Below are positions 37,570 through 54,778 of a DNA stretch of 64,000 bases, one piece after another. Origin of the DNA: a virus; IMG/VR virus record IMGVR_UViG_3300033571_011685, positions 1 to 64,000 of that record, one strand, 5' to 3'. Every line of letters begins with the position of its first letter. The first letter of the stretch is position 1. The notes below the pieces were generated by a model. The model made no database searches. It was not told where the DNA came from and worked only from the letters and a program-made list of their open reading frames with translations. The translations under genes and the position numbers were made by a program.

Positions 37570-37914
37570 ATGGGAACCAAATCCGCTAAAGTGTGGGGCA
37601 CCACAGAGCTGGTGTTGTCAAACTCTCAGTTTGAATTTCACAGAATAGTTTTCAAAAAAGGTTATAAGTGCTCTGAGCACAAGCACAAGACGAAGTCAAA
37701 CGGCTTCTTCATCGAATCTGGTTACATGTTGGTCAGAGTCTGGGACGGAGACGACGTCAACGAGATTAAGTTAGGGCCAGGAGATTTTACTGCTGTGCCT
37801 CCTGGCGTATTTCATCAGTTCGAAGGATTAGCAGACGGCGTGGCCTTCGAGCTTTACTGGGCAGAGTTCGATCCCAACGACATTGAACGCAGAACGTTAG
37901 GATGTAAAGCATAA
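37570..37914 (+). CDS. Cupin-domain protein
   Basis: 114-aa single cupin barrel. Motif 1 is CSEHKHKTKSNGFFIESGYM (His ligands and Glu) and motif 2 is GPGDFTAVPPGVFHQFEG (His). Relatives include sugar-phosphate isomerases and nucleotide-sugar enzymes. As the first gene of the KDO operon it may act on a sugar or be a sensor. GGAG lies 5 nt before the ATG. The exact reaction is unknown. Confidence 0.8.
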   Translation: MGTKSAKVWGTTELVLSNSQFEFHRIVFKKGYKCSEHKHKTKSNGFFIESGYMLVRVWDGDDVNEIKLGPGDFTAVPPGVFHQFEGLADGVAFELYWAEFDPNDIERRTLGCKA

Positions 37915-38690
37915 TGAGAATCATTGCAGGACCATGCCAGCACGAATCTTTCGAACACTCTAACATGATCGCAGAGCACTGCTCTACTGTCTGTAAAAAG
38001 TATGGTATAGAATACTATTTCAAGGCCAGCTACGACAAGGCCAATCGCAGCAGAATTACTTCGAAGCGCGGTCAAGGTCTAAAGAACACCATGAAAGACT
38101 TTGATCTTTTGAAGGCTGAGATTCCTGGTCTGAAGATTCTCACAGACGTACATGACGTCGAGCAAGTGTATCTGATCGCAGACGAATACAGCAGATGTGT
38201 AGACGTCTTACAGATTCCAGCCTTTCTATGCAGACAGACGGATCTTATCATTGCAGCTTCTAGCACTAGAAAGATCGTCAACATCAAGAAAGGCCAGTTC
38301 GTCGCTCCGTGGGACGTCGAAGACATCCTCGATAAGGCAAAGGATGCCAGAGAAGTTTGGATCACCGAGCGTGGCACATGTTTCGGGTACAATCGTTTGG
38401 TGGTAGATTTCACTGGCCTAGACTTTATGTTGACCAACTACCCAAATGTGGTGTTCGACGTTACTCACAGCGTGCAAGAACCCGGCGTAGGAGGCAATAG
38501 ATCTTTTGTTCCTGGCCTAGCTCGAGCTGCATCAGCCATGGGCGTCAAGAACTTCTTCTTTGAAGTCCACGACAATCCACCAGAGGCTCCGTCTGACGGA
38601 GACAACATGATTTATTTAGAAGACTTCGAAGAGGTCGTAGATATGATAGTAGGGTGTCATTATGTCAACAGCGATTATTATCCCAGCTAG
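37914..38690 (+). CDS. kdsA: KDO-8-phosphate synthase KdsA
   Basis: Condenses phosphoenolpyruvate with arabinose-5-phosphate to KDO-8-phosphate. 258 aa (E. coli, 284). Family motifs: FKASYDKANRSRITSKRGQG, ILTDVHDVEQ, DVLQIPAFLCRQTDL, VNIKKGQFVAPWD and VFDVTHSVQEPG. The N-terminal GPCQHES has Cys8 where metal-independent enzymes have Asn. With His in DVTH, Glu in EVHDNP and Asp in PSDGDN, it looks like a metal-dependent form. The start overlaps the cupin stop (TAATG). Confidence 0.92.
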   Translation: MRIIAGPCQHESFEHSNMIAEHCSTVCKKYGIEYYFKASYDKANRSRITSKRGQGLKNTMKDFDLLKAEIPGLKILTDVHDVEQVYLIADEYSRCVDVLQIPAFLCRQTDLIIAASSTRKIVNIKKGQFVAPWDVEDILDKAKDAREVWITERGTCFGYNRLVVDFTGLDFMLTNYPNVVFDVTHSVQEPGVGGNRSFVPGLARAASAMGVKNFFFEVHDNPPEAPSDGDNMIYLEDFEEVVDMIVGCHYVNSDYYPS

Positions 38691-39297
38691 ACTCAAGTCT
38701 ACACGATTCCCAAATAAGATGCTTGCCGACATGGGAAATGGCAAGACGCTTATTCGTCACGTAGTCGATAAGTGCTGGTCATTTGGCTACGACGTCTATG
38801 TGGCCACAGACAGCGATGAGATTGCCAGAGAAGTTGGCTACAACGTCATCAAGACCAGTAAGCTGCACGAAAACGGCACGAGTCGTTGCTCTGAGGCCGC
38901 AGAGAAGTTGAACTATGATTGCTTCGTCAATGTTCAAGGCGACATGCCGGATATCACTCAAGAAGTCGTAGATGCAGTTGTAGGAAAATTAGATATTGCC
39001 AATGTCTCCACCGCATGCGCCAAGAACAAGTCTTCTGTACATGTTACACATTCCAACGACATGGCTCGCTGGTTTAGTCGTCATATTCCATACGGGGACG
39101 GGCACTTAGGTGTATACGGTTACACTAAAGAAGCATTAATTCGCTATCGCACTCTCAAAAAGTTTCCTGAAGAAGACTTAGAAAGCTTAGAGCAGTTACG
39201 CTGGCTACAAAATGGAATTGCTGTTGCAGTAGCAAACACTAACTTTAGCGGAATGGAGATCAATACTCCAGAAGATCTCGCAGCATGGCGAACTTAA
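38662..39297 (+). CDS. kdsB: CMP-KDO synthetase KdsB
   Basis: Activates KDO with CTP to CMP-KDO. 211 aa, shorter than bacterial KdsB (about 248). Motifs: IIPARLKSTRFPNKML, ATDSDEIA, NGTSRCSEA, CFVNVQGDMPDI, HIPYGDGHLGVYGYTKEAL and LESLEQLRWLQNG. It overlaps kdsA by 29 bases with AGTAGGG upstream of its ATG. KdsA plus KdsB give an activated sugar from host precursors, though the KDO-8-phosphate phosphatase would have to be the host's. Confidence 0.9.
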   Translation: MSTAIIIPARLKSTRFPNKMLADMGNGKTLIRHVVDKCWSFGYDVYVATDSDEIAREVGYNVIKTSKLHENGTSRCSEAAEKLNYDCFVNVQGDMPDITQEVVDAVVGKLDIANVSTACAKNKSSVHVTHSNDMARWFSRHIPYGDGHLGVYGYTKEALIRYRTLKKFPEEDLESLEQLRWLQNGIAVAVANTNFSGMEINTPEDLAAWRT

Positions 39298-39860
39298 TAT
39301 TCAGCGGAAAGATAACAGAAGATGAGTTAGCTCGAGTAAGACGTGACATAGATCTTATACGTCCGCTTATTAAACCTGCAGCGGTTTATGGCAAAAAGAA
39401 GACTTACACCGACAAAAGCTTTCGCGACTGTCTAATATATCACCTGAAACAAGAGCAGTCTCCATTTATCTTCAATTGCCTAAATTCGTATATTTTAGAG
39501 CTATATTCTTGGACAGACTTAGATTTGACAGAAATGCCAGAAGTCCAATTTTCTAGATATGAAAAGGGTGGAAAGTTTAATTGGCACAGAGATGATATCA
39601 GAACTGGTAAAGAGAAGATTCGAGGGTTCACCTTTGTCATGAATCTATCTGATCCAGATAGCTATCGAGGCGGAGAGTTACTGGTTCAAGTAGGAGATCA
39701 GCAGTTGGTATTAGACAAGAGTCCTGGATCGTTCATCATCTTTCCTTCCATATTAAGACACATGGCATGTGAGGTAAAGTCTGGAGTCAGAGAGTCTCTA
39801 GTGCTTTGGACACATTTTAACAAGCAAGATATTAAATGGATAGAGAAGAACGCAAGCTAA
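39285..39860 (+). CDS. 2-oxoglutarate/Fe(II) oxygenase (prolyl hydroxylase-like)
   Basis: 191-aa double-stranded beta-helix enzyme. The metal motif HxD is in FNWHRDD, the distal His in LRHMACEV, and the 2OG-binding Arg in GVRESLVLW. GELLVQVGDQQLVLDKSPGS is typical of prolyl-4-hydroxylase-type proteins. It hydroxylates a protein, sugar or other small substrate; which one is not evident. It overlaps kdsB by 13 bases and the GT2 gene by 25. Confidence 0.85.
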   Translation: MANLIFSGKITEDELARVRRDIDLIRPLIKPAAVYGKKKTYTDKSFRDCLIYHLKQEQSPFIFNCLNSYILELYSWTDLDLTEMPEVQFSRYEKGGKFNWHRDDIRTGKEKIRGFTFVMNLSDPDSYRGGELLVQVGDQQLVLDKSPGSFIIFPSILRHMACEVKSGVRESLVLWTHFNKQDIKWIEKNAS

Positions 39861-40531
39861 CTCTCGGGACTACGTACTATAACAATCCCGAGCATCTAGT
39901 TAGGTTTGTAAAAAATCATTTGCCTTACGTCGACGAGCTTATCGTGGTCGACGACGCGTCTCCTGATCCTGCGATAGATCATCTACCTCAAGATCCAAAG
40001 ATCAAGCTGTATCGTGTGACCAAGGACTATGGTTTCAATTCACACGGCTGTCGCAATCTTATTATGAAAGAGAGTTCGAACGACTGGGTAATCTTGTTAG
40101 ATGTAGACAGAAACTTTCCTCATGCAGACCATGACATTCCATATCTCAAGCGCCGGCCTCTGAAAGAAGACACGCTCTATAGATTCATGGCCAACACGAT
40201 ATGGAATCTAAACAAAGGGGCACATGAATCTGTCAATGACTTTATGATCCATCGATCACACTTCTTCAGCGCAGGAGGATACGACGAAGAACTTATTGGC
40301 GTCAGAGACGGTGATAGACAGTATTTCGAACAGCTTAAGCACTTTGGTACTGAAGAGTTGTTGCCTCAGATTCATATGTACTTGATGCGGAAGCCGTCTC
40401 GCGGCAAAAAAGAACGCTCCCCAAAAGATAAGAAGGGGAGCGCTTACATATATGGAAAGATCAGGAGAAGAATGAAGAGACCTGATCCGAACAAACCCAT
40501 CTTGACCTTTGAATGGACTCAGCTCTTATAG
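39836..40531 (+). CDS. Family 2-type glycosyltransferase
   Basis: 231 aa, GT-A fold. The N-terminal LGTTYYNNPEHL, ELIVVDDASPDPA and the metal-binding WVILLDVDRNF are clear, with SAGGYDEELIG later. The C-terminus is Lys/Arg-rich. Its coding sequence there also encodes a minus-strand terminator (40406-40442). Its 3' end overlaps the convergent methyltransferase gene by 13 bases. It is the last gene of the KDO operon and may use CMP-KDO or another donor. Confidence 0.8.
   Translation: MDREERKLTLGTTYYNNPEHLVRFVKNHLPYVDELIVVDDASPDPAIDHLPQDPKIKLYRVTKDYGFNSHGCRNLIMKESSNDWVILLDVDRNFPHADHDIPYLKRRPLKEDTLYRFMANTIWNLNKGAHESVNDFMIHRSHFFSAGGYDEELIGVRDGDRQYFEQLKHFGTEELLPQIHMYLMRKPSRGKKERSPKDKKGSAYIYGKIRRRMKRPDPNKPILTFEWTQLL
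40406..40442 (-). terminator. Minus-strand terminator inside GT2 gene
   Basis: On minus, CGCTCCCC, a 12-base loop and GGGGAGCG are followed by TTCTTTTTT. On plus, no T-run follows. It stops leftward transcripts of the 40.5-46 kb operon before they run into the KDO genes. Confidence 0.75.
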
Positions 40532-41094
40532 ACTACGATTACGTATAGATCTATGATGGTGGTCTCTTTATCCTTCCTGACATTGTGCCAGATCCAGTTT
40601 GTATTGACTCTTACATTCTTGGTCTTACTAGGATATACTTCTATACGATAGTCGCCGACGTTCTTTATTCTGTCTACGATGATGTCTAGACATTCTTTTC
40701 CCATGACATCTTCGATGACGTAGGCATGTTCAAACACGTCACATAGATTTTCGAACGTCTGAATGATGTGCTTATAGAAGTGTGAACCGTCGTCTATAAT
40801 GACGTCGTAGTTTCCTAAAATATCTTTGATTGCTGGATCAGTAGAATCGTGTAACACGATCTTCGCGCCAGATGCTTCTATCGAGGCATCAAACTTTGCA
40901 TCAGTAATATCCACGCCAGTCAAATCACAGTAAGGGAAAAGAGTGGCCCAAGCGAGCAGCGAGTGTCCCTTTAGAACGCCCACTTCCAAGATGGATTTAG
41001 GCGGATCTACAAAAACCTTCTCATATACTTCGTGATAGTTGTGTGAGCCAGCTTTGTCTGTCAGACAGGTTTCAAAGACTTCCTTAATCTTCAT
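40519..41094 (-). CDS. Class I methyltransferase-like (MycE/CmcI type)
   Basis: 191 aa. SAM-binding motif SILEVGVLKGHSLLAWATLF, then LTGVDIT, and NYDVIIDDGSHFYKHIIQTF, a pattern of small-molecule or sugar O-methyltransferases of the mycinamicin/cephalosporin family. It is the last gene of the leftward operon and overlaps the radical SAM gene by 11 bases. A paralogue with the same motifs lies at 44747-45511. Likely target: a glycan. Confidence 0.72.
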   Translation of the reverse strand: MKIKEVFETCLTDKAGSHNYHEVYEKVFVDPPKSILEVGVLKGHSLLAWATLFPYCDLTGVDITDAKFDASIEASGAKIVLHDSTDPAIKDILGNYDVIIDDGSHFYKHIIQTFENLCDVFEHAYVIEDVMGKECLDIIVDRIKNVGDYRIEVYPSKTKNVRVNTNWIWHNVRKDKETTIIDLYVIVVYKS

Positions 41095-42067
41095 GCTTGA
41101 AATCGCCTAGATCGAACTTGGTGCCCTTCATCTTATTGATGGCGACCATGTCGTTGTTCTTCCAGACCAACACTTCGTTGTCCTCATAGAGAAAGTCGCA
41201 GTCCTTACAGAATGATACCTCGTCGAATCTCTTCTCGGCATGCATCTGACGAAGCCACTGGTAGCGTTCACCGTTCCATACTTCCTCAAGTGACTTGCCT
41301 TCGAGTGTACCGAGGTCTGCTTCTGCGTCTCGTCCAAGTGTCTGACAACATGGAGCTACAGTCAACTTGCCGCCGTTGACTCCGCCTGCCCGAACTGTCA
41401 GGTCAGGACTAAACGGTCGGCCACAAGTCTTACGCTCGCCTCTGCGCTTATAGTCCACATCATAGACGCCAGACCAGTTGTGCATCTTCCAGATCTCAGC
41501 TTTCGTGCCGACTCTGTCGATAAAGTTTTTCTGATACTGTTCTACTTCCCAATCTACTTTATCGTTGTCCAAGATCAAGTGATACGAGGCCACAGTACAG
41601 TCAGCCTCTTTAAGAGCTATATAATTTATCATGTTTTGCGCATTGGAAATTACGTGCTCGAAAGCGTCACGATCCATCCACTGCTTATACGTCTCGCGAT
41701 CGTAACCGATGACTGAGAATCTCGCGAGTGCTAGACCGGCATCGACACATTCGCGCATTAAGTCTCCACGTAGGTTGAATCCATTCGTGTAGATGAAAGG
41801 CTTTGCGCCATACTTACGAACGATGGCGATGTATTCGGGCAGATTACGATTCAGTGTAGGTTCGCCAGATCCTTCAAGATTAACGACGTTTAATCCTGCT
41901 GCAGCTGCCTCTGCTACGATACGTTCGAAGTCTTCAAGAGACATTTTCTTGAGCCAGTCTTTGCCACGACCAGGATTTGTCTGCGGGCACATCTGACAAG
42001 AGTAGTTACATCCTCCGTTGATCTCGATGACTGCTCTGTCAATAGACAAAGGTATTGAATAGCTCAT
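41084..42067 (-). CDS. Radical SAM/SPASM protein
   Basis: 327 aa. The N-terminal cluster motif Cx3Cx2C is in INGGCNYSCQMCPQ, followed by VNLEGSGEPTLN and FIYTNGFNL. C-terminal Cys groups (KTCGRPF, APCCQTLG, FCKDCDF) fit a SPASM domain with extra iron-sulfur clusters. SPASM enzymes often modify peptides or proteins, and sometimes sugars. AGAAG precedes the ATG, and it overlaps the upstream gene by 29 bases. The substrate may be a neighbouring product. Confidence 0.88.
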   Translation of the reverse strand: MSYSIPLSIDRAVIEINGGCNYSCQMCPQTNPGRGKDWLKKMSLEDFERIVAEAAAAGLNVVNLEGSGEPTLNRNLPEYIAIVRKYGAKPFIYTNGFNLRGDLMRECVDAGLALARFSVIGYDRETYKQWMDRDAFEHVISNAQNMINYIALKEADCTVASYHLILDNDKVDWEVEQYQKNFIDRVGTKAEIWKMHNWSGVYDVDYKRRGERKTCGRPFSPDLTVRAGGVNGGKLTVAPCCQTLGRDAEADLGTLEGKSLEEVWNGERYQWLRQMHAEKRFDEVSFCKDCDFLYEDNEVLVWKNNDMVAINKMKGTKFDLGDFKHED

Positions 42068-44270: not shown

Positions 44271-44769
44271 TCTTCTTCTTTTCTTTTTCGAACTGCATGT
44301 CTTCGATCTCATCGAAGATGTCGATGAAGGACTTTCCAGTTTCCTTCATATATTCTGTGCATAATACAGATAGGACTAAGTTTAGCAAATGAATGCTTGG
44401 TGCTCTGCGCACTGCAGCCTTATTTTGAGGAGCTGCGTTTTGAACAAAAGGTAACTCGAATGCTCGTGTCTTGGCATCAAACAGTTGCTTTAGAATGTCG
44501 TTCTGAACAGCAGCCTTGCGCTTCTTATCATGAAACTCTGCGTCTCTACGGCGCTTGGTTTCTAGATCATTACGCGCCTTACGCATAGCCTCTACGTCGT
44601 GTTCGTCCATGATTCGATCCCAAAGATCGCTCACTCCACGAACTCGATTCTTAGGAACTTCGATCTCAGCATTGGTCTCGACGCCGTTCTCGGCGACCAA
44701 GATCATGCGCACTCGACTCTTTTCAAGATCGATGAATTCAGGTCTCTTAATTATCGGATATTTGGTCAT
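44248..44769 (-). CDS. Hypothetical protein (173 aa)
   Basis: The N-terminal beta part (VRMILVAENGVETNAEIEVP) is followed by charged helices (EAMRKARNDLETKRRRDAEF, DKKRKAAVQND) and an acidic Lys-rich end. It is embedded in the glycan operon but shows no transferase motif; it could be structural or regulatory. It overlaps genes on both sides (22-23 bases). Confidence 0.6.
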   Translation of the reverse strand: MTKYPIIKRPEFIDLEKSRVRMILVAENGVETNAEIEVPKNRVRGVSDLWDRIMDEHDVEAMRKARNDLETKRRRDAEFHDKKRKAAVQNDILKQLFDAKTRAFELPFVQNAAPQNKAAVRRAPSIHLLNLVLSVLCTEYMKETGKSFIDIFDEIEDMQFEKEKKKNEPQDPV

Positions 44770-45511
44770 GCTCTTTCTTTCTTAATACGACGATATACTC
44801 GGTGGTGTTATCATATTTTCCTTTGGTGACCATCTTGGCACCTAGATTGTCGTGTGAATACACGTTTATCTCGTGACCTTCTTTTTCAAGCTCTACCAAT
44901 TTATTATTCAAAGCCAACAGCTCTAGTTCGCCGTAGCGATGGCTGACGTCTTCAATAAAATATAGACCTCCTGGCTTTAGATATTCCCAGCCATTTGTCA
45001 ACGTAGGGAGCTGTTCGTTAGAAGGATGGTGTCCGCCATCGTCTATAATGACGTCAAATTCTTTACCCCACAGTTCATACCAATCTGTCTCCTGCCTTGT
45101 ATCAAAGTAACACTTTTTGATAGTATTGTACACAGGAAATCTGCGAGAAATCTCTTGCATCTCTGCAGTTCTCGATGGATCGATGACGTTGTCGATGCCG
45201 GTGAGCTTGGCATTCTTGAAGTATCTCTGCCAAGCCAAAAGACTCCATCCGAAGAAGATACCTATCTCTAATATGTCTAAAGCTTCATCTCGCTTAGAAG
45301 AGAGATACTTGCTATAGACTCTGTCGTATCCTCTCCATCCGGCTCGATCAGTCTCATCTGCCTTACGACCGACTTTGATCAGCGCTGGGTTAGAAGCCAC
45401 CTGTTTGGCAGTGTATCGATTGTGGTGTGGATTATAGTTTAAATACTCTCTGAGAGTTGGATCACTCTCAGGCAAGTACGTATATGGTATAGCATGATCA
45501 AATATCATCAT
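44747..45511 (-). CDS. Class I methyltransferase (MycE-like)
   Basis: 254 aa. The SAM motif LDILEIGIFFGWSLLAWQRY, then LTGIDNV, and FDVIIDDGGHHPSNEQ with LKPGGLYFIEDVSHRYGE matches sugar O-methyltransferases of the mycinamicin type, including the Asp-Asp-Gly-His metal/acceptor segment. The start overlaps the upstream stop (ATGA). It is a paralogue of the gene at 40519-41094. It probably methylates a sugar made or transferred by neighbouring enzymes. Confidence 0.8.
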   Translation of the reverse strand: MMIFDHAIPYTYLPESDPTLREYLNYNPHHNRYTAKQVASNPALIKVGRKADETDRAGWRGYDRVYSKYLSSKRDEALDILEIGIFFGWSLLAWQRYFKNAKLTGIDNVIDPSRTAEMQEISRRFPVYNTIKKCYFDTRQETDWYELWGKEFDVIIDDGGHHPSNEQLPTLTNGWEYLKPGGLYFIEDVSHRYGELELLALNNKLVELEKEGHEINVYSHDNLGAKMVTKGKYDNTTEYIVVLRKKEHDQISDN

Positions 45512-46158
45512 ATCTTTTTAAACTCATGAAACTTCTCCGGAGGCCAATGCTCTGGATGCTTATTGCAAAAATGATCTACAGTATTACCGACTTCATCGTT
45601 CATTACCTGGTTACTACATGCAACGTACTTCTTATGACGCTCACTGACCACCGTATTTTTCCAGTCAGAGTATGCAGCGATGTGTCCGTAAGGTCCGCAA
45701 CCTATAATACTATCTATACACCTTGTCACGAGCTCTTTTGCAAACTGTGGTTGAATAACGTAGCTACCCATTGCAGCTTTGTCGTAGAAGATCATTCCAT
45801 ATGAAGGATCATACCAAAGCTTTTCCGGATGTTCGAGGTATGTATCGTGTTCTAACACCATGATGGGTTCGTTTAAAAATACGGATTCTTGCCACAGTTG
45901 AAAATGACTGTACCAACAGGCACGTTCTGTGGGAGTGATGTCTGCCTTAAGGCCATGCATCAGATACTTCTTGTCTGTCCGATACTTGACAAACTTCAGC
46001 TCTTTTAGTCTGTGCAGATCGTCAGGAGTTACTGCGTCGAAGCGTTCTACTTTAATGCCGACCGCTTCCCACGACGGTGTACAGTAGTCGGCGTAGTACT
46101 CTGAAGCTTTGTTTCCTTTGACCACGATCATGTAGCATTTCAAATCAGATAGTTTCAT
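45508..46158 (-). CDS. Family 25 glycosyltransferase-like protein
   Basis: 216 aa. CYMIVVKGNKASEYYADYC at the N-terminus, ITPTERACWYSHFQLWQ and EPIMVLEHDTYLEHP follow the GT25 (LOS galactosyltransferase) pattern, with EHD in place of the usual ExD. AGGA precedes the ATG. It is the first modification gene after the Tyr-repeat protein and starts 12 bases past its stop, so the two are probably cotranscribed. Confidence 0.82.
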   Translation of the reverse strand: MKLSDLKCYMIVVKGNKASEYYADYCTPSWEAVGIKVERFDAVTPDDLHRLKELKFVKYRTDKKYLMHGLKADITPTERACWYSHFQLWQESVFLNEPIMVLEHDTYLEHPEKLWYDPSYGMIFYDKAAMGSYVIQPQFAKELVTRCIDSIIGCGPYGHIAAYSDWKNTVVSERHKKYVACSNQVMNDEVGNTVDHFCNKHPEHWPPEKFHEFKKI

Positions 46159-46169
46159 ATCATTCCTAA

Positions 46170-48239
46170 TTATGGGAGGTCAGCCGTGTATGTCTTGTCG
46201 TACACATTATCGTATGCTTCTCCATAAGATAGATCATACTGCGCATCATATGACTCATCGAACGTATTGTCATAGTCTGTTGCATATGGAGATTCATATA
46301 GAGAAGTGTATGTAACTTCGAAGTTTCCTGTATAGTCTGTATCATACAGAGACGTTTCGAACGTGCCCACATAAGTCACGACATTGGTGTCCGAAAGATA
46401 TGTCGTGTCGTATACTTCTGTTTCGAAAGAAACATCGTATGAAGATTCGAATGACACGTCATACTCTGTCACCAACTCATAGTTTGTTGCAGCCGAATAT
46501 ACACCGCCGTAGACGTTTTCATACGTAAGATCATAAGTCGTCGTGTAGTCTGTCAGATAGTCTATCGCATAGAGTGTTGTGAACGTGGCGGTGTAACCTA
46601 GAGTATAGTCTGTAGTATAGTCAGAGGCATACGCTGGACCGACGTATGTATCAGAGAAAGCTGCCGTTGTAGTAAAGTCTGCTTCATAGTTTGCAGCACT
46701 CTGATATTGAATTGAACCAAAGTCTCCGGTGTAGGTAGCGCCTCCACCAAAAGATGCTGCATCATAATCTTCAGGACCGAGAAAGAAATCAATATTTTTG
46801 ACACCGTTGAAGAATACTACGCCCTGGAATTCTCCTGTCCCGGTATAGCTCAGCGTATATTGTAAAGAGGCAAAGTCTGATTGATATGCGCCGGTGTAGC
46901 CTATGAACCCAGCATAAGTTCCAACATAAGTGGTGCTGCCAGTGTAGTCAGTGGTGTATGACCCCGCAAAATCTCCGGTATACGTAGCGGAAAAGTTTAC
47001 GTTGAAGTCGGTATTAAAGCCTACATCAGAATAGTCTGTGGTATAGCTGTTCTGATAATTCGTATCGAATCCCAGATTATATTCTGCAGCATAAGATAGC
47101 GCAGAAGTAAAGTCTATGAAGCCAGAGTAATCTGCGCTGACCGTGTATAGTGTCGCTGGTCCCACATAAACAATGTCGTACAACGTAGCATAGTCTGCAG
47201 AGTATGTTGGACCGACAAAGTTTCTAATATAGACGCCGCCGTATTCGTCGGTATAGTCATCGATAAAGCTAGCGTCATAGTCTTCAGCGGCATAAGGTGG
47301 GCTGACGAATGGACCAATGTAGTTCTGATTAAACCCGGCAGCTACATAGTTAGTTCCATCATAAGTTCCAAGATATGGACCTGTATAAGTTATAGATTCA
47401 TACGATGTTGTAGTGAAGCTTGCTCCGTCATAGTTTTGGGCAGCTGGCCCGCTATATGTTGCAAGATATGATACTGTTGGTCCTACGTATGTTAATACGT
47501 ACGGAGCGCCTTCGAAGTCGCCTTCATATGTCCGGAGATATGAGGGGTTGTAGGTATTAGTATAAGTGGCAGTTGATCCATATAAACCAGAAAAGTCTGT
47601 GCCAGCATATGACAGGACGTAAGACAGCTGATAGCCGCCGCTGGGCCCAGCGTATATCGCAACAAGAGTATCATACTCTAGAGCTGGTGTTACTTCTGTT
47701 GAATATATAGCGTTGAAGTCTGCTAAATAATCACTGCCTCCGTAGCTGTTGCCGGCGCCGGCATTGGCATACAACAAATCGTCATAGTCTGTGTTACCTC
47801 CAGAATAACTTAGAGCATAGCCCGTCTCAAGAGTTATATAGTCTCCTACGAAGTCTAATAGGTAGTCTGACTGATATTCTGTAAGATATTCATCTAACAC
47901 ATAACTCAAAGCGTAGTGCGCAGTATACGTCCCAGCATATGCTGTGTCGTATGTAGCAAGATATAAAGCGGTAAAGTCGCCTTGATATACTATATCGTAG
48001 TTAGATTCGAAAGTGGCAAGATAAGAGTCTTGGAATGAACCTTCATACACACCCACAAATTGGTTGTCGAAAGTTCCAGTGTAAGTGTCTGAGAAGGCAG
48101 AATCATACGCGCCAAGATATGTCGTGTCATAAGTTCCAAGATAAGGCACACCATAAGAACCGACGTAAGAGCTCTCATAGCTCGGGCCCGAGTCTGCTAT
48201 AATTGGGCTTAATCTTACAGTCTTGAACCTTACGACCAT
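46170..48239 (-). CDS. Aromatic-tetrad-repeat protein (probable tail fibre/adhesin)
   Basis: 689 aa made mainly of Tyr/Phe, Asp, Thr, Gly, Ser and Ala. From Tyr21 to Tyr113 every fourth residue is Tyr or Phe, 24 times without a break (units such as YLGT, YDTT, YLGA, YDSA). A second unbroken run of 14 covers residues 632-684. Between them the spacing is mostly 4, with short insertions. Near residue 470 there is FQGVVFFNGVKNIDFFLGP, shared with the protein at 52613-54778. No signal, enzymatic motif or known repeat family is recognised. Location among fibre genes suggests a tail adhesin. The ribosome-binding site is weak. Confidence 0.7.
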   Translation of the reverse strand: MVVRFKTVRLSPIIADSGPSYESSYVGSYGVPYLGTYDTTYLGAYDSAFSDTYTGTFDNQFVGVYEGSFQDSYLATFESNYDIVYQGDFTALYLATYDTAYAGTYTAHYALSYVLDEYLTEYQSDYLLDFVGDYITLETGYALSYSGGNTDYDDLLYANAGAGNSYGGSDYLADFNAIYSTEVTPALEYDTLVAIYAGPSGGYQLSYVLSYAGTDFSGLYGSTATYTNTYNPSYLRTYEGDFEGAPYVLTYVGPTVSYLATYSGPAAQNYDGASFTTTSYESITYTGPYLGTYDGTNYVAAGFNQNYIGPFVSPPYAAEDYDASFIDDYTDEYGGVYIRNFVGPTYSADYATLYDIVYVGPATLYTVSADYSGFIDFTSALSYAAEYNLGFDTNYQNSYTTDYSDVGFNTDFNVNFSATYTGDFAGSYTTDYTGSTTYVGTYAGFIGYTGAYQSDFASLQYTLSYTGTGEFQGVVFFNGVKNIDFFLGPEDYDAASFGGGATYTGDFGSIQYQSAANYEADFTTTAAFSDTYVGPAYASDYTTDYTLGYTATFTTLYAIDYLTDYTTTYDLTYENVYGGVYSAATNYELVTEYDVSFESSYDVSFETEVYDTTYLSDTNVVTYVGTFETSLYDTDYTGNFEVTYTSLYESPYATDYDNTFDESYDAQYDLSYGEAYDNVYDKTYTADLP
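46188..46346 (-). repeat. C-terminal aromatic tetrad run (14 units)
   Basis: Encodes residues 632-684 with Tyr or Phe at every fourth position, a 12-base period in DNA. The codons between are degenerate, so the repeat is a protein repeat rather than a recent DNA duplication. Confidence 0.85.
47901..48179 (-). repeat. N-terminal aromatic tetrad run (24 units)
   Basis: Encodes residues 21-113 with Tyr or Phe at exactly every fourth residue. Two-tetrad units of the form YxGxYDxx recur (YLGTYDTT, YLGAYDSA). Confidence 0.9.
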
Positions 48240-48245
48240 GTTACG

Positions 48246-49697
48246 TCACTTTACAAGCATAGATTCTAGATACTCTATCCGTTGTTTGAGCGACCTGATC
48301 TCATTCAACATAGGCACTATTAATTTATTATAGCTAACACCGCGGAGTTGTGGTTGACCGTCCACCACGTCGTAGAATACCAGACTGGGATTGACCAGCT
48401 CTGTCTCTTCTGCGATCAGACCATACTCTATAGGAGATTCTGCCTCTTCAGTATAGTTGCCTACTACATCCTTCTTTCGATAGTTGAAAGAGACTGGTCG
48501 TAGATCGTGTAACCACGCCGTATTGGTCATGGTTTCGATGTTAGTCTTGGCAGCTTGAATAGAAGACACGTAGCCCATCAAGCCAGTGTCATCGATGAAC
48601 AGGTCACGATTTGTGACGCCTACTGTCGTGTTGTAGATCGTTTGAGCAGTTATGGTTGTCGCACCGTATAGTGTGATTCCGTTGTTGGAGATCACCACGT
48701 TGGCCGTGGTGTTGCCGATGTCGAGCATTGCCATGTTGGCTAGCAGCTCTCCAGAAACATAGACGTTTCCGCTGACACTCAACTTATCTGCAGGAATAGA
48801 GTTGCCAAAACCGATGTTGCCGTTTGTTACGAAGTATGCAGATGTGCCGACTGTGAATGCATTGACAGAATACGTCAGTGCGCCGGAACCTGTTCTACCT
48901 AGTTTAGAAGTAGTGTCAGCGTTACCAAACACTATGTAGCCGTTATTGGCGCTTTGTTGTCCTCTAATACCGATCGTATCTGCAGTATTGATGTCGCCTA
49001 TCCAGGCATCGTCGCCGACTTTGTAGTTTTGACCATTGCCATTATTGGTCGACAATACTTGATCTGCAGTTATGGATGTAGAATTGATAGTGGTGTTTAC
49101 AGAAGAGTTGCCGACATAGATGTTAGTGCCAGTAAACGCCACGTTGGCTTGAAAAGTGTGTGTATTAGTCCAGGTATACTGCGCAGCTGTATTGATCGAC
49201 GCCGCGCCTGGACTTGACCAATATACACTAGACCCATCAGAAGTAAGTAATTGTCCACTACCACCTAAGCTATTGTTGGCGTATATGCCGAAGATGGACA
49301 TATCGATAGGTGTATTAAACCTAAAAGCTCCCGATTGAGAAGAACTTAACGTATTTGCATAGATGTTAAATACAGCGCGTTGACCGCCGGCAGTGTTTGT
49401 GGTATAAAACACAAAGTTATCATCGCTCTGTTGTCTCATTCCGACAGAATTGCCGCTTAAAGCTTTAAAGCTTAAGCCAACTTCGTTATTAAGAGTAATG
49501 GATGAAGTGATTGATAAGTTTGTAAGATTTGAGCCCACCTCAAACGACGCAGAGCCGTTAGATGAGAAGAGCTTCTTGTCAGCTAGGTTGACCGCGAATT
49601 CGCCTGCATCGATGTACGCTCCGTTGGAGCTGTTCGTGGTATTAGGCGTTCTGCCTGACACAGACGTACGCTTGATCTGAATCTTAGTATTGGCCAT
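48246..49697 (-). CDS. Tail fibre with C-terminal S74 chaperone domain
   Basis: 483 aa. The N-terminal adaptor ANTKIQIKRTSVSGRTPN, with GEFAVNLADKKLF, resembles that of the fibre at 49980-51989. A Thr/Asn-rich beta repeat body follows. The C-terminus, from about residue 355, has the intramolecular chaperone pattern of peptidase S74 domains: RDLFIDDTGLMGYVSS, LRPVSFNYRK, EYGLIAEETELVNPSLVFYD and YNKLIVPMLNEIRSL, then a coiled coil. S74 domains trimerise fibres and often cleave themselves off. AGAGGA precedes the ATG. Confidence 0.88.
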   Translation of the reverse strand: MANTKIQIKRTSVSGRTPNTTNSSNGAYIDAGEFAVNLADKKLFSSNGSASFEVGSNLTNLSITSSITLNNEVGLSFKALSGNSVGMRQQSDDNFVFYTTNTAGGQRAVFNIYANTLSSSQSGAFRFNTPIDMSIFGIYANNSLGGSGQLLTSDGSSVYWSSPGAASINTAAQYTWTNTHTFQANVAFTGTNIYVGNSSVNTTINSTSITADQVLSTNNGNGQNYKVGDDAWIGDINTADTIGIRGQQSANNGYIVFGNADTTSKLGRTGSGALTYSVNAFTVGTSAYFVTNGNIGFGNSIPADKLSVSGNVYVSGELLANMAMLDIGNTTANVVISNNGITLYGATTITAQTIYNTTVGVTNRDLFIDDTGLMGYVSSIQAAKTNIETMTNTAWLHDLRPVSFNYRKKDVVGNYTEEAESPIEYGLIAEETELVNPSLVFYDVVDGQPQLRGVSYNKLIVPMLNEIRSLKQRIEYLESMLVK

Positions 49698-52609: not shown

Positions 52610-52617
52610 TATTTATA
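52610..52617 (-). promoter_or_regulatory. Late promoter TATAAATA within 3' end of upstream gene
   Basis: Exact TATAAATA on minus, 22 bases before the ATG at 52587 and overlapping the stop at 52613. Confidence 0.65.
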
Positions 52618-54778
52618 AAAGAACCTTGCTCTTTGAGGAGATTGATTTCAACTCAGAAGTTTCAAGGTCGCCCAATTCGATGGCTTCCCAAGTAGTTCCG
52701 TTTGTAGAAGCCAAAATAGGATAAAGAATGTCGTCTGTAATGATATAGAAACGATTGAGGGTTGTAGAGAATGTGATGTCCACGATGTTTGTAGAAGGAT
52801 CTAGAGCTTGAATTGCTCCGGATGATTCTCCAGTATTTGACCACGTAGCTCCGCCGTCTGTGCTGGTTACTAGACCGCGCGATTCTCCTACTGCCACCAA
52901 AATACTTGCAGTGGGGCTATACTCTACTGCATTAAAGTTAAACGAGTCTAGAGCAGTGCCTGTATATGCACCCTCATAAGACGTGCTATACGTTCCAGTA
53001 TATCCACCGGTATATGTAACTTCATACGAAGTAGTGTAAACTGTATCATATGTAGAAGTATAGTCTCCTTCATATGTATTGACATACGTACCAGCGTAAC
53101 TTGTTTCATATAGGCCGCTCGTAGTGGGGCTAACAAAAGTTCCGATATAAGTTAGATCGTACGCTGTTTCATATGGTATCGGATCGGCAAAGCTATTTGT
53201 GTAGAGTGTGGCATATAACGCTGGAGTTATGAATGCTGGGCCAAGATAGTCTGTGCTACTGTCATATCCGACTCCAGCCCCCTGCGTATAAGTGGCCGTA
53301 AAGTTCGCAGGACCCTGAAACTCTCCTACATCTTTAGTACCATTAAAGAACACTACTCCTTGGAAAAAATCAAATCCTGTTCCAGAATAAGTCATTATAT
53401 ATGAAATACTACTTCCTGAGTCGTAAATGATTCCGCTATTATAGACGGGTTCATAAGCACCTGCATACAAATCGTCAGTGTAGTCAGTACCATAATCATG
53501 CGAGTATGTTGCTATATAAGTCGTCGTAAATGTTGCTCCAATGTACTCGTTCTCATACGTAATACCACCGAAAGTAGGTCCAGCATACTGTTGAGTAAAT
53601 GGAGTTGATCCATCAAAATTAGCATTGAAAGATCCGAGATACGTGAGATCAAAGGCTGCATCATAGTTGGTGTCAAATGTAGTAGATTGATACTCGTTGA
53701 TGTCAGCAAAAATGGTGCCGTCATAAGAGGTAGCAAATTCTTGACCGTACTGCGCTAGACCATATCCTGTAAAGGCCGTTCCTCCATATACAAGATCCTG
53801 ATAGCCTCCAGTGACATATGCGTCGTACGAAGTTCCACCAAAATTATCTAGATCTGCGACTGCTCCAGGTCCAACGTAAGTAGTTGCTGGACCATCATAG
53901 AATGTAGAGTAGTCTATGTTATAGATTGTTTCTGCTATTTCATACTCACTTGCACTATACGAATCATACGATATATTAGGCCCGGCGTAGCTTAAAGCAC
54001 CAAGGTAGGACGGCACGCCAGCTACATACGCGGTATCATTTGAATAATTTGCTTCGTATACAATATCATATACTGTGTTATCATAGTTAGTGACAGAGGG
54101 GATATATCCCAAATCCCACATACTCAATGGATTTCTAGCATAGAGAAGTCCACCCCCGCTGCATGCAGCCACAAACGTGTTACTGGATGAGTCGAAAGTG
54201 ATATCTTTGATGTCGACGTTTGTGGGCATGTCGACTTTGGTCCATGACCCGGGGATGCCTGTACTAGAGACAAACATAGTACCAGCATCGCCTGCCGCGA
54301 GATAGAGATCACGAGTGGTAGAGTAGTATGCTGCGTTTAGTTTATCTCCCGGAGTAAGATTGGTATCGTTCCAACTACTTACACCAGTCTCTGAGTCGAC
54401 TACAAAAGCATCTAAATACTTGCCGCCTACAACGATCCACTTGGCTTTAGTGGTACCGTCGGCATTCTCGTTGACGACGATATCATTGAGATCGTAGTTA
54501 TAACTACCTGCAGCGTCGAGCCACAACTCTCCACTAGTTCTACTATAATAGATATTTCTGTTGGGCGTCTCTGTAGTAGTCGCGACGAGCAAGTCTGATA
54601 CAGCAAAGATCTTATTAAAATCTACTGCAACGTTTGTGATTCTTTCGTTCCACGTGACGCCGTCGTTACTTCTATAGATGGCAGCTTTTCCATCCGTAGT
54701 CTTTCCTGCAACGACTAACTCGAAAGCAATGGTGGTTTGAGATGATGATGCCAGCATTGCCAGCATAGCGCCGCTCAT
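52613..54778 (-). CDS. BNR beta-propeller interrupted by aromatic tetrad repeat
   Basis: 721 aa in three parts. Residues 1 to about 224 carry Asp-box/BNR-type blades (YRSNDGVTWNE, STGIPGSWTKVDMP). Residues about 225-608 are Tyr-rich tetrad sequence, with an unbroken run of 13 at 557-605. Residues 609-721 return to propeller blades (TSTDGGATWSNTGE, ASTNGTTWEAIEL). The repeat domain is therefore inserted into the propeller. A block with FFQGVVFFNGTKDVGEFQGP is shared with the protein at 46170-48239. Probably an exposed, receptor-binding tail component. Confidence 0.75.
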   Translation of the reverse strand: MSGAMLAMLASSSQTTIAFELVVAGKTTDGKAAIYRSNDGVTWNERITNVAVDFNKIFAVSDLLVATTTETPNRNIYYSRTSGELWLDAAGSYNYDLNDIVVNENADGTTKAKWIVVGGKYLDAFVVDSETGVSSWNDTNLTPGDKLNAAYYSTTRDLYLAAGDAGTMFVSSTGIPGSWTKVDMPTNVDIKDITFDSSSNTFVAACSGGGLLYARNPLSMWDLGYIPSVTNYDNTVYDIVYEANYSNDTAYVAGVPSYLGALSYAGPNISYDSYSASEYEIAETIYNIDYSTFYDGPATTYVGPGAVADLDNFGGTSYDAYVTGGYQDLVYGGTAFTGYGLAQYGQEFATSYDGTIFADINEYQSTTFDTNYDAAFDLTYLGSFNANFDGSTPFTQQYAGPTFGGITYENEYIGATFTTTYIATYSHDYGTDYTDDLYAGAYEPVYNSGIIYDSGSSISYIMTYSGTGFDFFQGVVFFNGTKDVGEFQGPANFTATYTQGAGVGYDSSTDYLGPAFITPALYATLYTNSFADPIPYETAYDLTYIGTFVSPTTSGLYETSYAGTYVNTYEGDYTSTYDTVYTTSYEVTYTGGYTGTYSTSYEGAYTGTALDSFNFNAVEYSPTASILVAVGESRGLVTSTDGGATWSNTGESSGAIQALDPSTNIVDITFSTTLNRFYIITDDILYPILASTNGTTWEAIELGDLETSELKSISSKSKVLL
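52964..53110 (-). repeat. Aromatic tetrad run (13 units)
   Basis: Encodes residues 557-605 of the propeller protein with Tyr at every fourth position (YETS, YAGT, YVNT, YEGD and so on). Same repeat type as in the gene at 46170-48239. Confidence 0.85.

Follow-up and report, generated by a model that had tools for sequence, protein, structure and literature searches.

A phage protein with tyrosine or phenylalanine at every fourth residue: a candidate aromatic beta-ribbon in a marine T4-like phage

The locus and its phage

The DNA analysed here, called the window throughout, is a stretch of 64,000 nucleotides from the IMG/VR virus record IMGVR_UViG_3300033571_011685 (G000), which comprises 133,314 bases. 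Its main feature is a gene on the minus strand (46170..48239) that encodes protein A, a 689 amino acid long protein with an N-terminal segment of 20 residues and a ladder of regularly spaced aromatic residues that extends up to the C-terminus. On the plus strand, the same interval contains many stop codons. The record matches the T4 portal protein (gp20), the T4 major head protein (gp23), gp6 and gp5, and its nearest cultured gp23 homologues, with 62-67% identity, are mostly those of Kyanoviridae phages of Pelagibacter, Methylophilales and Synechococcus. These matches identify the source, a marine phage, as T4-like and Kyanoviridae-like.

Six bases upstream of A, a tail-fibre gene (48246..49697, minus strand) encodes a protein with a C-terminal Peptidase_S74 chaperone domain. 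A directly follows this gene and occupies the position of a gp38 adhesin gene, which in T2- and S16-type phages follows gp37 (PMC6851490; PMC12892980). The gene immediately downstream of A encodes a family-25 glycosyltransferase (45508-46158; E 2e-12) and is accompanied by a methyltransferase gene (44747-45511). Within approximately 9 kb of A, there are also genes for a radical SAM/SPASM protein (41084-42067), a 2OG-Fe(II) oxygenase (39285-39860), a family-2 glycosyltransferase (39836-40531) and CMP-sugar synthesis. The target of these sugar, oxygenase and methyltransferase enzymes could be either the fibre or the host surface. Two neighbouring genes, one DAHP/KDO-8-P-synthase-like (37914-38690 of the window) and the other CMP-sugar cytidylyltransferase-like (38662-39297), would form a phage-borne pair for the activation of a sugar, possibly KDO.

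A six-frame scan of the whole record revealed exactly three ladder-encoding open reading frames, A and two further ones, B and C, that the sequence-only reading of this DNA had overlooked. Protein B (52613..54778, minus strand) is the second ladder protein of the window; its ladder covers approximately residues 213-615 of 721 and contains runs of up to 13 aromatics. It is followed by a segment (residues 605-721; 52616..52966, minus strand) that weakly resembles BNR/Ycf48 proteins, under the curated cut-off. As the part preceding the ladder scores as beta-propeller-like at an E-value of 0.19 only, it is only suggested by the sequence that the ladder of B interrupts a beta-propeller. Protein C is encoded outside the window (G000:72268-75108, equivalent to L007:8268-11108, minus strand) and consists of an N-terminal ladder with runs of up to 10 aromatics and a helical part that is weakly similar to tape-measure proteins. 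Its gene adjoins or overlaps a gene for a gp5 hub that is reduced to the OB domain, lacking both lysozyme and needle, and C may replace the gp5 needle.

The aromatic ladder of protein A

Protein A contains 149 Tyr and Phe residues, and the distance between successive aromatics is exactly four in 98 of 148 cases. The longest uninterrupted run, with 24 aromatics at spacing 4, spans residues 21-113 (47901..48179, minus strand), a second one with 14 aromatics spans residues 632-684 close to the C-terminus (46188..46346, minus strand), and a third one with 12 aromatics is located at residues 537-581. By comparison, the longest run in 2000 composition shuffles of A was 8. These data bear out the sequence-only reading, which had described Tyr or Phe at every fourth residue and runs of 24 and 14. 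The repeat unit that it had proposed, YxGxYDxx, describes part of the ladder fairly but is not a strict unit. Tyr accounts for 78% of the aromatics in the regular runs, the position +2 after the aromatic is mostly occupied by Gly, Thr, Ala or Ser, and Asp, Thr and Ser are frequent at positions +1 and +3, which gives a low-complexity composition rich in Y, G, S, T and D.

Tandem Repeats Finder detected no tandem DNA array between positions 46000 and 55000, and the synonymous codon usage of A is mixed for Thr, Gly, Ala, Ser, Leu and Val. The ladder is thus maintained at the protein level on diverged DNA, and its pattern looks like the result of selection on the protein. Recent slippage of the DNA was considered as the origin of the ladder and is ruled out by the same two observations.

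Sequence comparison did not assign A to any described family. It has no match in Pfam at E<=1, none in PHROGs or NCBIfam and none among PDB chains in a sequence search, and no Pfam-A profile for RHS/YD repeats, collagen or other repeats matches A. The earlier view that the repeat belongs to no named family and differs from YD/RHS repeats and collagen therefore holds for these libraries. Neither A nor B was found by tblastn among 50,697 phage records, a search limited by the low-complexity filter of BLAST, and a search for related loci with A or C retrieved no relative. The motif FQGVVFFNG, which A shares with B, was not found when used as a pattern against viral contigs. Among the papers searched on aromatic repeats at every fourth residue, on tetrapeptide repeats of cyanophage fibres and on phage C48C1, no description of such a repeat was present.

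Among annotated phages, clear ladders occur only in Phage C48C1 (OQ984149, Kyanoviridae), in which CDS0201 encodes a 3347-residue 'hypothetical protein' with as many as 70 aromatics in a row at spacing 4. This protein shares an N-terminal domain with a family of ladder proteins from IMG/VR (43% identity to one of them, L086), but it contains additional non-ladder domains, and beyond its annotation as hypothetical no description of it was found. In six related cultured phages, there is no stretch of eight aromatics spaced by four. The S-RIM2 cyanophages were matched via an aliphatic VTGN tetrapeptide array in the structural protein SWTG_00067, which likewise has a period of four with a hydrophobic residue followed by T-G-N, but uses Val or Leu instead of Tyr or Phe and forms only short arrays.

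Ladder proteins in other viral contigs

Further ladders were gathered from IMG/VR by searching the DNA for eight TAY codons spaced 12 bases apart and then by a family search; many of the pattern matches were excluded because they were antisense frames or simple low-complexity proteins. The remaining set contains many ladder proteins, relatives in kind of A, with very variable ladder lengths. A belongs to this class as far as the latter is characterized by runs of Tyr, Phe or Trp at spacing 4 that lie far above those in shuffles. Its resemblance to the other members is one of pattern and composition, which does not prove common descent. One family ladder gene (L230, CALPIE020000128.1) is located on a short contig of a metagenome-assembled genome labelled Bifidobacterium breve, which is likely a mis-binned phage contig.

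In one family, L133-L212, three homologous units make up an N-terminal domain, which is followed by the ladder and a C-terminal strand. In the alignment, the ladder lies between the last two beta-strands of unit 3, where units 1 and 2 have a short loop, and the ladder is therefore an insertion into a hairpin of the host domain. The AlphaFold2 model of this host domain is of high confidence, and a Foldseek search of PDB and BFVD gave no match for it at E<=0.001. The three-unit domain is absent from A, in which the family profile matches ladder parts only.

Ladders of the L133-L212 type contain spacing irregularities, mostly gaps of six residues, that recur at mirrored places about a central tip, for instance ILYYSGYVGG. 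In L166, the succession of gaps reads 4^9 6 4^4 6 4^4 6 4^4 [3 7] 4^3 6 4^4 6 4^4 6 4^9, and in L171 it reads 4^5 6 4^4 6 4^3 [3 5] 4^2 6 4^4 6 4^5. The symmetry was evaluated with a single ungapped axis against 1000 shuffles of the gap order, a test that has no power for ladders in which nearly all gaps are 4. Mirror symmetry reached p<=0.01 in 17 and p<=0.05 in 23 of 41 distinct ladders, which are related sequences and do not represent 41 independent tests. In nearly all significant ladders, the axis divides the ladder at about 0.50 of its length and the tip motif coincides with the turn, and usually more than 80% of the aromatics are mirrored; the best axis of L164 is off-centre, at 0.70. 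The mirror fails in L133, L143, L197, L205 and L208 and in the L221 ladders. When residues are paired in antiparallel orientation by eye, six-residue steps with (A/P)K face steps with T(S/G) in L162, L166, L171, L179 and L182.

Mirrored spacing is also present in very long ladders. The 1461-residue ladder of L190 has a mirror z of 6.7. L222, a protein of 3146 amino acids and the complete form of L073, contains a zone of period 4, followed by zones of period 12 (8+4) and period 4 and by a globular part, after which the zones recur in reverse order. Its 12-residue zones comprise 660 and 656 residues and its inner 4-residue zones 452 and 460 residues on either side of a tip of 175 residues, and this palindrome scores z 16 when compared with shuffles and z 7 when compared with block shuffles. 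The two arms keep the 8+4 spacing although their sequences differ (QVPEQYVGAYTG versus ERQQDITYEGLY types). For L073, Pfam matches to NA-iREase3 and DUF1677 and a PDB match to 23fj were judged to be low-complexity artefacts. In L093, 63 and 61 residues separate Cys clusters at the base, the tip and again the base, and the protein has no match outside the ladder. The Cys/His clusters HTCH, CDRCCHAH and CSRC flank and tip this ladder (L093:3086-4846) as if metal ions or disulfides clamped its base and tip.

No significant mirror was detected in A, B or C. The best local axis of A falls on the FQGVVFFNG motif, in the FQGVVFFNGVKNIDFFLG region common to A and B (residues 470-487; 46779..46832, minus strand), with non-significant p values of 0.06-0.14, and a residue-level test of A gave a z of -0.5.

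AlphaFold2 models of two relatives point in the same direction as the mirrored spacing. L144, which has the shortest ladder, is drawn as a continuous beta-hairpin with strands 230-269 and 272-313 and a turn at residues 270-271 in the tip motif, with a pLDDT of about 95 at the base that declines to about 39 close to the tip. In L171, with a ladder pLDDT of about 40, the strand pairs 259-279/387-415, 286-291/377-382 and 310-323/341-355 can be read from the strand order. Both models agree with the mirror, although as structures they are weak. Together, the mirrored spacing and the predicted hairpin argue for an out-and-back ribbon, and the idea of a solenoid, raised in the sequence-only reading, is not favoured.

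Several ladders share a chain with adhesin domains. A Gp38 domain is present in L223:6325-9309 (E 6e-10) and in L221 (E 1e-7), and L017 contains a LamG lectin domain (E 4e-16). On contig G004, genes for a gp37-like distal fibre, for a protein with ladder and Gp38 domain and for the ladder protein L190 follow each other. The gp38 proteins of S16 and PP01 recognize their receptors with the distal loops that connect Gly-rich motifs (PMC6851490; PMC12892980). In L221, a poly-Gly motif and a subsequent Gly-rich stretch are separated by approximately 1080 ladder residues, and L223 has a short loop at this place. Because the second Gly-rich stretch alone does not match PF05268, the reading of L221 as a split Gp38 domain relies on visible similarity.

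A candidate extendable arm of tail-fibre adhesins

Taking pattern, phage type and gene position together, A is likely a tail-fibre or adhesin protein, and on balance we favour the interpretation that it is a virion protein consisting almost entirely of an aromatic-ladder beta-ribbon, from a class that forms antiparallel out-and-back arms. We infer the ribbon fold of A from its relatives in kind, and its virion location, oligomeric state and ligand are likewise inferences. In such a ribbon, Tyr or Phe at every fourth residue would line one face, with Gly, Thr, Ser or Ala in between, and polar residues would occupy the other face. The arms of the class would exit the host domain at a hairpin, reach a tip made of a globular domain or of no more than a short turn, and return antiparallel and in register. 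The aromatics could pack across the ribbon or between chains to produce a stiff fibre, or they could present an aromatic face to host polysaccharides.

A close parallel is the Gp38 adhesin (PF05268) of S16, T2 and PP01, which resembles the ladder proteins in the position of A behind a tail-fibre gene, in long loops that extend from a host domain and carry, or in the ladders would carry, receptor binding, and in the Gp38 domain that some ladder proteins contain. In contrast to Gp38, A has no Gly-rich PGII-sandwich domain, which among the ladder proteins is found in L221 and L223 only, and the ladders have an aromatic at every fourth residue and are not polyglycine II helices.

The C-terminal beta-helix of T4 gp5 is built from the octapeptide VxGxxxxx. 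It shares with the ladder a short regular repeat, Gly at position +2 and the context of a T4-like tail protein, and the YxGxYDxx pattern of A resembles its octapeptide. A could accordingly be pictured as a one-directional trimeric beta-helix or prism like the gp5 needle, with Tyr and Phe in place of the core Val, and the location of C behind a gp5 hub gene without needle fits such a picture. The aliphatic VTGNLTGN ladder of S-RIM2 also matches gp5 chains, but weakly (best E 0.003) and at low-complexity grade, whereas the aromatic ladder gave no direct match to gp5 in the PDB sequence search and A does not follow the VxGxxxxx rule. The ladder is, moreover, aromatic with a period of four, and a one-way helix would predict neither the mirrored, out-and-back spacing of the relatives nor their insertion into a hairpin, so that we consider a gp5-like needle unlikely.

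It appears quite unlikely that the ladder forms a disordered segment of stickers and spacers, in which evenly distributed Tyr and Phe would serve as flexible glue for surfaces or polysaccharides. The low-complexity composition rich in Y, G, S, T and D, the low pLDDT of the ladders and their very variable lengths are compatible with disorder, but disorder does not require an exact spacing of four or irregularities that are mirrored in register, nor the 8+4 spacing that both arms of L222 share despite different sequences. The enzymes encoded around A, with the family-25 glycosyltransferase just downstream and the other sugar and oxygenase genes within about 9 kb, raise the further idea that the ladder is a template for modification, on which Tyr, Thr and Ser would be hydroxylated or glycosylated to yield a decorated fibre. 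Such genes may instead act on host LPS or on phage products in general, and we regard this explanation as very unlikely.

Returning to the antiparallel ribbon, we see about an even chance that the ladders represent an undescribed fibrous fold of marine T4-like phages: a two-armed antiparallel aromatic beta-ribbon of about 55 to about 2700 residues, of which A would be an almost pure specimen. The ribbon would emerge as an inserted loop from adhesin domains of tail fibres, namely from the three-unit domain, probably also from Gp38 and possibly from a beta-propeller, and would serve as an extendable, tipped arm. The kind of function, a tail-fibre adhesin, is known, and for the repeat, the libraries and papers searched contain no described family. 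The proposal makes a clear structural prediction, namely that the arms pair antiparallel about the tip, and the ladder would provide a simple template for the design of protein fibres. The host choice of phages is set by the tips of their tail fibres, and little is known about these fibres in uncultured marine phages. A repeat that occurs in many viral contigs and has no match in Pfam, PHROGs, NCBIfam or PDB would thus add a fibre architecture to those already described.
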